NCBI GenBank assembly: GCA_025356095.1
Contig: JANXUR010000112.1
Span: 1 to 64,000, forward strand
Direction of reading: 5' to 3'
DNA from: Acidobacteriaceae bacterium
GTDB lineage: Bacteria > Acidobacteriota > Terriglobia > Terriglobales > Acidobacteriaceae
Length of the DNA: 64,000 nt
Each line of letters begins with the position of its first letter. Positions within the stretch are counted from its first letter, which is position 1. The notes under the pieces were generated by a model that did no database searches, had not been told where the DNA came from, and saw nothing but the letters and a program-made list of their open reading frames with translations. The position numbers and the translations under genes are program-made. Positions 60,499-63,199 of this stretch are shown here, one piece after another.

Positions 60499-61035
60499 TT
60501 ACTGACCTGCCCGGGCGCTCCTCTCCAACGTCCGCAGAAATAGCACTACCTGCCAGCGCTGCGCGTCCGGCGCTCCGCTGAAGGATGGCATCTTCTTACC
60601 TGTGTTGCCTTGCGTGATCTTCCAGAAGAGTGCCCCGTCGCTTTGCTGCTGCACCAGCGGCAAAGTAAGATTTGCTGCGGGTGGCAGACCGGTACCATCG
60701 GGGCGATGACACTGGGCGCAGTCGCGCAGAAATATCTTCTTGCCGCCGGCTGCCAATTGTGGCTTGTTGGCGAGTGGATTGACCTTGGCTGAAGCCTCGG
60801 GCGGGGCTTGCCATTTGGGGTCTTGGATGTAGGTGAGGTTCTGGGCGTGGGCTGGTGGAGTAAACATCGCACAGAGTGCGAGTGTGAGCGCGAGTGTGGC
60901 TGTGACTGTGCCGACCCAAGCAAACAAATTTTTCTGCTTCGCAGGAACGGAACAGGCAAGGCATCCTGTCCCCACGCGGTCCCCGCTGGCCAAGGTGCCC
61001 CTTCCCGCACATTTTAATTCACTCATCTCAATCAT
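60499..61035 (-). CDS. Small membrane-anchored or exported c-type cytochrome
   Basis: I place the start at ATG 61035, overlapping the stop of the upstream gene by four bases (ATGA), which gives 178 residues. A GTG at 60975 would give a cleaner signal sequence (NLFAWVGTVTATLALTLALC, cleavage near AHAQN). The heme motif is CAQCH in IFLRDCAQCHRPDGTG, and a distal Met is likely in KKMPSFSGAP. This is a class I cytochrome c domain of about 85 residues, acting in electron transfer outside the inner membrane. The partner is unknown. It is co-transcribed with the outer-membrane-like gene before it and lies under the two TTGCAA-N5-TTGCAA boxes. Confidence 0.85.
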   Translation of the reverse strand: MIEMSELKCAGRGTLASGDRVGTGCLACSVPAKQKNLFAWVGTVTATLALTLALCAMFTPPAHAQNLTYIQDPKWQAPPEASAKVNPLANKPQLAAGGKKIFLRDCAQCHRPDGTGLPPAANLTLPLVQQQSDGALFWKITQGNTGKKMPSFSGAPDAQRWQVVLFLRTLERSARAGQ

Positions 61036-61936: not shown

Positions 61937-61985
61937 TTGCAAACCAGTTGCAACTGTAGGGTACAGTGTTGCAACTATGTTGCAA
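61937..61985. promoter_or_regulatory. Two TTGCAA-N5-TTGCAA boxes (Nur-box-like)
   Basis: TTGCAA occurs at 61937, 61948, 61969 and 61980, giving two exact TTGCAA-N5-TTGCAA elements 32 bp apart (about three helical turns). They lie 12 to 60 bp before the outer-membrane gene start, where a repressor would cover the promoter. The pattern matches the box described for the Fur-family nickel regulator Nur of Streptomyces. The Fur-family gene is adjacent. Confidence 0.7.
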
Positions 61986-62077
61986 GTGACTTCCATCACC
62001 ATTGTCGCGGCCACTTGCCACTTGGGTCAAGCCCATCTATGTCAGAGTTGTGTCATTTGGTAGTGCTGTTCAGCGCG

Positions 62078-62612: not shown

Positions 62613-63017
62613 CTATGCCGGGCCGCGCAAGTTCTGCTTCAAGCGCTTCGCCAGTCTTTCAATCTCATCTGCCTTCTTGATAGATGCCACGGGCAGAACG
62701 GGCGCGGTGCTAACGACTTTGATCTCCTGCTGCAGTTGGCTCGCCAGTGCCGTAAGGCGTTCGCTGTCGTCGGCCAACTGTTTGAGCCTTTCTTCCCTTT
62801 GCTTGCGCTGGCGCTCCATCTCGGCCCTCATCAGGAAGTCTTGCCGAACCTTGGACCCGGGCATTGGATTCACCGTAACCACACCCGGCATGCTGCTTTG
62901 CAGTTGGCGATCGGAAATAGGCCGATTCGGAATGGGAGGCATCGGACTTTGTGCTTGGGAACCGCCGCAAAGCAAAACCGCCAGCAATAATCCAGCCTGC
63001 AAACCGTAGAGTCGCAT
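62613..63017 (-). CDS. Small secreted protein with coiled coil, function unknown
   Basis: The 134-residue protein has a signal peptide (YGLQAGLLLAVLLCGGSQAQ), a Pro/Asn-rich segment (SPMPPIPNRPISD) and a charged helix (about 60-100: MRAEMERQRKQREERLKQLA). It ends in a second helical part, VASIKKADEIERLAKRLKQN. No enzyme motif is present. The GAGG before ATG 63017 and the signal peptide support it as a real gene. It precedes the Fur-family gene on the same strand but I see no functional link. Confidence 0.72.
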   Translation of the reverse strand: MRLYGLQAGLLLAVLLCGGSQAQSPMPPIPNRPISDRQLQSSMPGVVTVNPMPGSKVRQDFLMRAEMERQRKQREERLKQLADDSERLTALASQLQQEIKVVSTAPVLPVASIKKADEIERLAKRLKQNLRGPA

Positions 63018-63035: not shown

Positions 63036-63083
63036 GATATTCGATGTTTGAAATTTGATACCTGATATTTGATACTTGATATT
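63036..63083. repeat. AT-rich degenerate repeat of TGATATTTGATAC type
   Basis: About four imperfect copies of a GATATTTGATAC-like unit lie in the gap between the secreted-protein gene and the MscS gene, which must hold both promoters. Their role is unknown. Confidence 0.6.
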
Positions 63084-63199
63084 TAACGCCGAATTATACG
63101 GCCCGCTTCCACAAATCGCGGCAACTCCGTTGAGTTCTCAGGCACATCAGTTCACTCTTGCTATAATCCACCTTTCGGAGCGACCCGCTTTTGATTGCC

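Follow-up and report, generated by a model that had tools for sequence, protein, structure and literature searches.

A Fur-family regulator of Acidobacteriota with a probable operator of its own and probable iron-uptake targets

The locus and its paired palindromes

The window, by which the whole analyzed stretch of 64,000 nucleotides is meant, carries the gene of a Fur-family regulator, here called wFur, and on the same strand the genes of an outer-membrane protein (OMP) and a mono-haem c-type cytochrome (cytC). The hexamer TTGCAA occurs at positions 61937, 61948, 61969 and 61980, in steps of 11, 21 and 11 bp, and forms two exact TTGCAA-N5-TTGCAA elements between the wFur stop codon and the OMP start codon, with the cytC gene then downstream of OMP (Table 1). 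An earlier sequence-only reading had described these positions and the two elements before the OMP-cytC operon, and both were confirmed exactly. It had also considered the boxes to be phased on the DNA helix. This applied to the window, with 11-bp steps within a box and 32 bp between the boxes, but not to relatives with two boxes, where the spacing was 73 to 85 bp at 12 loci and 59 bp at one; strict helical phasing of the paired boxes was dropped, as the spacing is not kept.

Palindromes of the form TTGCAACTNAGTTGCAA, with the variant TTGCGACTNAGTCGCAA at some loci, are referred to as w-boxes, and TTGAAAWTNAWTTTCAA, the presumed box of classical Fur (cFur) in these bacteria, as the c-box. With up to two mismatches, TTGCAA-N5-TTGCAA was found five times in the window against 3.8 times expected, which is the level of chance, so that the weight is carried solely by the exact elements and their conservation. 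Four promoter-like sites were present in the region against 1.1 expected, and the wFur promoter of the window has no w-box of its own. Upstream of wFur lies a minus-strand gene for a small secreted-looking protein of 134 aa (62613-63017), which is about 35% conserved in several relatives and matched no family above the cut-off. A 21-nt AT-rich repeat in three imperfect copies with 14-nt steps (63036-63084) precedes an MscS-like gene.

Table 1. Features at the wFur and OMP-cytC genes, with positions in the window.
Feature	Position	Strand	Remarks
w-box 1, TTGCAA-N5-TTGCAA	61937..61953	.	near-palindromic, TTGCAACTNAGTTGCAA type; 11 nt before the OMP ATG
w-box 2, TTGCAACATAGTTGCAA on the minus strand	61969..61985	.	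15/16 to the consensus of relatives
Candidate sigma-70 promoter, TTGACC-18-GACAAT	62001..62030	-	15 nt upstream of w-box 2; proposed from its consensus match
wFur, Fur-family regulator, 156 aa	62078..62548	-	PF01475 match
Outer-membrane protein (OMP), 297 aa	61032..61925	-	signal-peptide-like N-terminus; no Pfam family
Mono-haem c-type cytochrome (cytC)	60499..60927	-	CAQCH; PF13442/PF00034; start codon uncertain, open frame from 61047

The structural model of OMP was a 12-strand barrel of low confidence (mean pLDDT 55.9). FapF was the top match of this model in the PDB and a COG4313 channel stood lower in the list, at 9 to 15% identity. An assignment as FapF or as a COG4313-type channel was not adopted, and OMP was taken as a 12-strand barrel only. 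The pair C211-x2-C214 (CxxC, no haem motif) was conserved in all four aligned sequences and, given the usual barrel topology, would sit in a periplasmic turn. The cytochrome has one CxxCH motif.

The regulator and its operator in relatives

The wFur protein scored 84.7 bits with the Pfam family FUR (PF01475), whose cut-off is 23.1, which places it in the Fur superfamily, and its gene was the only PF01475/Fur-family gene found in its own genome. Orthologues with at least 45% identity were present in 42 of 120 genomes of the family (fragments in G013 and G070 counted). Classical Fur, scored as present at an identity of at least 54% (a fragment in G099 counted), is about 31% identical to wFur. 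A sample of the phylum yielded matches to wFur at E ≤1e-30 in 18 of 297 genomes, 15 of them outside the family. Phylogenetic analysis separated wFur (40 rows), cFur (8) and PerR-like proteins (8) into three groups with 97 to 99% ultrafast bootstrap; the backbones of this Fur-family tree and of the FTR1 tree were weakly supported. Two genomes contained two wFur copies of different subgroups (G091 with L062 and L079; G028 with L068 and L083). A further Fur-family group (L213, L215, L216, L222), with ATTYNNLRDL and RHHHFICDRCG or similar motifs, is unlike wFur, cFur and the PerR-like proteins.

All 40 wFur rows share H40, E91, H98, H100 and E111 as well as C103, C106, C143 and C146, and H82 and H88 are likewise invariant (40/40). 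The first five residues resemble what we take to be the regulatory site of PerR, with E111 presumably at the peroxide-sensing position, where wFur has Glu and not Asp. The second metal site of Fur is presumably lost, its equivalents being I99 and T135 (T, S or A in most relatives). By these assignments, made from general knowledge of the Fur and PerR sites on the 40-row alignment, wFur keeps one regulatory metal site only. The recognition helix reads mostly DRxTVYR in wFur and GFTTVYR in cFur.

The exact pattern TTGCAA-N5-TTGCAA was searched in the window's own genome (3.53 Mb, 120 contigs), as the sequence-only reading had proposed with nickel, superoxide dismutase or catalase genes in mind. 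Exact copies were present at three places only, two in the window at OMP-cytC and one before feoAB, while the backward-read control gave one place in the whole genome. Of the 11 matches with one mismatch, eight fell within open frames, and the remaining three (L005, L012, L013) did not, as judged by eye, precede an iron gene.

Beside wFur, TTGCAACTNAGTTGCAA was found with at least 13/16 matching positions at 35 of 40 loci from 38 genomes, compared with a mean of 0.26 and a maximum of 13 for 150 shuffled palindromes. At least 14/16 was reached at 29 loci (shuffled mean 0.03, maximum 2) and at least 15/16 at 19 loci (shuffled mean and maximum 0). Flanking bases lengthen the w-box towards AGTTGCAACT-N-AGTTGCAACT, and the inner CT-N-AG is favoured in relatives. 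At 17 of the 40 loci w-boxes precede the wFur gene at a distance of 17 to 49 bases. In the family sample, the genes faced by the boxes are OMP-cytC at most wFur loci, in tandem or divergent arrangement.

Conservation was narrower in a second set of 22 mostly more distant relatives, in which only five wFur genes had an adjoining w-box (L223, L224, L225, L231, L243). This set came from 23 loci, of which L244 (26% identity, Rhodothermaeota) was excluded from the box count, and consisted of metagenome-assembled genomes of Terriglobia, Acidobacteria gp1 and gp2, Acidobacteriaceae and Bryobacterales. Five gp2 relatives (51 to 60% identity) and most Bryobacterales had no w-box beside wFur. Neither box adjoined the wFur orthologues at L226-L230, L232-L242 and L245 (44 to 60% identity; gp2 Acidobacteria, Bryobacterales), and no alternative conserved palindrome stood out beside the box-less relatives. 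Lack of conservation, which the sequence-only reading had named as evidence against itself, was seen only in part: the boxes are kept at 35 of 40 loci in the family sample and in five of the 22 mostly distant relatives. The w-box operator thus belongs to only a portion of the wFur clade, the one that includes the window.

A wider search for TTGCRACTNAGTYGCAA with up to one mismatch covered 34 of the 42 wFur genomes and returned 38 places in 27 genomes against six for the backward control. Twenty-six places were at wFur loci and seven before the iron permease gene FTR1 (G091, G026, G009, G047, G085, G052, G083). Five were elsewhere and had no query-gene match (G062:C10, G106:C354, G109:C197, G099:C129, G091:C96); the two for which frames were read (G062, G106) fall inside open frames. 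As the backward control gave six, these five places are probably due to chance.

Where OMP is not adjacent to wFur, other genes face the w-boxes. TonB siderophore receptors above the TIGR01783 cut-off were found in this position in G017 (L070) and G014 (L071), and G099 (L075) has a Fiu-like receptor there which scores below the cut-offs, its gene being truncated where the contig ends. At other loci the boxes face an Oar-like barrel (G006), a porin-like protein with no assigned family (G028, G079) or a small cytochrome c-like gene (G062). At L080 and L082 the w-boxes face no recognizable iron gene.

Box type and regulator at FTR1, OMP-cytC and feoAB

FTR1 was matched in 76 of 120 genomes, and 69 of these were examined after omission of weak or partial matches (G008, G046, G057, G059, G078, G087, G113). 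One of two loci in G099 was dropped, and the tree omits G072 and G106, whose sequences were too short. No FTR1 match was found in the window's own genome. FTR1 was preceded by a c-box and never by a w-box in all 18 genomes with both regulators and in all 27 with cFur only. Where wFur was the only regulator, a w-type box was present in nine of 14 genomes, a c-box in three and no clear box in two. With neither regulator, eight of ten FTR1 genes had no box, two had a c-box and none had a w-box. The w-type box thus occurred in 9/14 wFur-only genomes and 0/55 others (Fisher p = 7e-5, a value which ignores relatedness and overstates the case). Since related sequences inflate Fisher values, the number of changes on the FTR1 tree is the safer measure: six are required for the switch, and well-supported branches force at least three of them. 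The number is five if G028 and G093 are omitted, which score 13 on both patterns and are two of the nine switched genes.

The wFur-only genomes in which FTR1 had not switched were G104 and G004 with a c-box, G035 with a mixed box (14 as c-box, 13 as w-box), and G013 and G023 with no clear box. Most of the genomes are draft assemblies, in which a missing cFur may reflect a gap; G104 is 91% complete, and its sister G048 has cFur. Both box types lie at much the same place before FTR1. The promoter is conserved as well: among 13 upstream regions, TTGACGC...TATCCT has a box just downstream of it that is a w-box in G091, G047 and G085 and a c-box in G044, G109 and G068. Intermediate boxes were found in G035 (TTGGAACTCATTTTCAA) and G052 (TTGAAACTGAGTTGCAA). 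In G052, where the FTR1 operon has switched, a TATAAT lies 16 nt before the box, and the FTR1 protein carries PF03239 and PF10080, being fused to an FtrD-like domain.

OMP was matched in 52 of 120 genomes, of which 49 were examined (weak matches in G020, G064 and G073 omitted). The counts leave out weak extra copies (G004, G005, G037), a partial copy (G075) and second copies without cytochrome (G106, G105), and operons were scored with thresholds of at least 13/16 for the w-box and at least 14/16 for the c-box. The 29 operons of the 28 wFur genomes had a w-box in 25 cases and a c-box in one. Those below the w-box threshold were in G018, G023, G093 and G014, the last having the c-box. Genomes with cFur only had a c-box at 11 of 14 operons and a w-box at none, and with neither regulator five of six operons had no box, a c-box being present at one and a w-box at none. 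The Fisher value for OMP (p = 4e-10) is again too favourable because relatedness is ignored. In G052 the OMP operon lies on a different contig from wFur and still has a w-box. In G014 a siderophore receptor occupies the slot beside wFur, and the OMP operon, which is located elsewhere, has the c-box. G059, which has cFur and no wFur, shows the gene order OMP-cytC-cFur. As the box follows whichever regulator is present, OMP-cytC would be an iron operon under either one, and OMP and the cytochrome most likely provide an outer-membrane and periplasmic step of iron uptake.

On contig 49 of the window's own genome, an exact TTGCAA-N5-TTGCAA lies 14 bases before the feoA start, with the w-type box TTGCAAACGAGTTGCAA at -31. 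Among seven other genomes with feoAB, six (including G004) had a classical box with 16/16 matches, at -30 to -33 in four genomes and at -9 and -51 in two, the starts being inferred from tblastn. By its box, which stands about as far from the start as the classical ones, feoAB of the window's genome repeats the switch seen at FTR1. This feoAB (L120:1149-3377) lies beside an SprT-like gene, and an sdhC-like gene follows feoB; an SprT-like gene also adjoins FTR1 at five of the seven w-box FTR1 loci examined (L125, L126, L127, L129, L130). In G004 (L066, L116, L179), no cFur was detected, classical boxes precede FTR1 and feoAB, and OMP has a 16/16 w-box.

Interpretation and comparison with known systems

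The comparison of genomes establishes the boxes, their conservation near the lineage of the window, their targets and the match between box and regulator at the level of sequence. Conservation and co-variation with the regulator argue for the claim of the sequence-only reading that the neighbouring Fur-family protein acts on the boxes. With high probability, wFur belongs to a separate Fur subgroup of Acidobacteriota and represses its targets in response to iron; it has its own operator and often took over FTR1 or feoAB where cFur is absent. Replacement of cFur by wFur most likely took place several times.

As operators containing TTGC are known both for Nur and for the Fur of alpha-proteobacteria, the metal cannot be read from the box alone, and it is the targets and the exchange with cFur that point to iron. 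The earlier reading of wFur as a Nur-like nickel sensor on tTGCaa-N5-ttGCAA, in charge of nickel handling and with OMP as a nickel port, arose because the outer bases of the window boxes fit the Nur consensus; both boxes match it exactly in the form given in PMC3919588, and Nur (3eyy) was 8th of 26 PDB matches of the wFur profile. It is nevertheless very improbable and was rejected on the targets. The other exact site of the own genome precedes feoAB, the boxes of relatives stand before FTR1 and siderophore receptors, and OMP-cytC, FTR1 and feoAB carry classical Fur boxes where cFur regulates. The inner CT-N-AG favoured in relatives also falls on bases which the Nur consensus leaves free. Ni-SOD was not found in 34 genomes, a result that counts little as the control of this search was also silent. 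The proposed link of the operon to metal handling is supported, with iron rather than nickel as the probable metal. Manganese sensing like that of Mur of alpha-proteobacteria, with the iron genes following the Mn/Fe balance, is hardly probable. The best PDB matches of the wFur profile, ahead of other Furs, were 5fd6 and 5fd5, which we take to be the Fur/Mur protein of Rhizobium leguminosarum, and a single regulatory metal site is conserved. TGC also occurs within alpha-proteobacterial Fur boxes, described as TG(C/A)-N-A-N8-CA(A/T) in PMC9409073, and Mur controls manganese transporters according to PMC5575495. However, all recognized targets of wFur are iron-uptake genes, and 30 Nramp loci (one per genome in 30 of 34 genomes, most of which hold further Nramp genes) had no w-box of at least 14/16 and no c-box. 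Three w-hits with a score of 13 were inside the matched region (L279, L294) or more than 250 bases before the open frame (L296), and manganese found little support from these loci.

A PerR-like sensor, which would detect peroxide through bound iron and have the cytochrome as a defence enzyme, accords with the five site residues of wFur and the loss of the second Fur site. Glu in place of Asp at the sensing position is reported to make such a site insensitive to peroxide, and with Glu there in all 40 rows and a separate PerR-like group with Asp in relatives, this function is very improbable. The targets recognized at the boxes also included no catalase or peroxidase gene. A different objection is that common ancestry, with only a few independent switches, may account for most of the association of box and regulator, and that OMP and cytochrome may serve iron-related electron transfer instead of uptake. 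The switched genomes do include the sister pairs G026/G091, G009/G083 and G028/G093, tree backbones are weakly supported, and a mono-haem cytochrome can serve respiration. This combination is unlikely, considering the number of switches that the FTR1 tree demands even without G028/G093 and the lack of either box in most genomes with neither regulator (8/10 FTR1 and 5/6 OMP loci). Moreover, iron shortage does not usually induce haem proteins, which speaks against electron transfer.

Direct binding, iron as the effector and repression are parts of the mechanism that we infer for wFur. The metal-loaded dimer would sit on the TTGCAACTNAGTTGCAA-type palindromes just downstream of the OMP-cytC promoter and block transcription, and would bind in the same way before feoAB of the own genome. 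Under iron shortage wFur would lose its metal and be released, freeing OMP-cytC and feoAB. In genomes with both regulators, wFur would retain control chiefly of the OMP operon or of a different outer-membrane receptor, and in many of these genomes also of its own gene. In the absence of cFur, it would often capture FTR1 or feoAB by substitutions within the existing box, from TTGAAAWT to TTGCAACT half-sites.

A more far-reaching proposal is possible but tentative. The Fur paralogue wFur, with an operator code two to three bases per half-site off that of Fur, may on several occasions in Acidobacteriota have taken the place of Fur as master iron regulator. On each occasion it would have captured FTR1 or feoAB through mutations in the box itself, with the promoter left as it was. 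OMP and cytochrome c may then form a previously undescribed outer-membrane module of iron acquisition, independent of TonB, which perhaps reduces Fe(III) at a periplasmic CxxC and haem face and can trade places with siderophore receptors within one regulatory slot. The literature searched, which left subscription journals largely outside its scope, yielded no account of the operator or of the operon. With OMP-cytC, FTR1 and feoAB under two alternative boxes that mostly match the regulator present, these bacteria offer a natural experiment in regulator replacement, and the intermediate boxes and several independent switches make it readable. A probable iron operator is thereby named for one group of soil Acidobacteria, and an orphan outer-membrane protein and a cytochrome are tied to iron.

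Compared with known systems, wFur shares with classical Fur the fold family, the TVYRT motif of the recognition helix, the CxxC pairs, an operator of inverted half-sites round one central base, and iron-uptake targets with the box at much the same promoter position. It differs from cFur in lacking what we take to be the second metal site (T135, I99), in its half-site TTGCAACT instead of TTGAAAWT, in the small number of sites per genome and in its separate clade. Measured against classical Fur, wFur has the boxes at iron-uptake genes, but not the pair of metal sites, of which the second would have a His on the last strand, and not a TTGAAAWT-type box. Zur is known by zinc targets such as znuABC and alternative ribosomal proteins, and the exact boxes of the own genome are confined to OMP-cytC and feoAB. 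PerR resembles wFur in a single His/Glu-type regulatory site and four structural Cys residues, but wFur has Glu for Asp at what we take to be the peroxide-sensing position, and operator and targets differ. Nur of Streptomyces shares the outer bases of the box (PMC3919588), but the targets of wFur are iron genes, and the inner CT-N-AG favoured in its boxes has no counterpart in the Nur consensus; nickel sites and the targets sodF, nik and sodN are given for Nur in a review (PMC7055735). Mur and Fur of alpha-proteobacteria have TGC...GCA operators and are the nearest PDB sequences by profile, but their published box has 16 bases and even symmetry, and the Nramp loci of the present genomes had no clear box. 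EfeU/FTR1 permeases with an FtrD-like domain have the same PF03239 and PF10080 as FTR1 of G052, but here a w-type box takes the place of the c-box in nine genomes.
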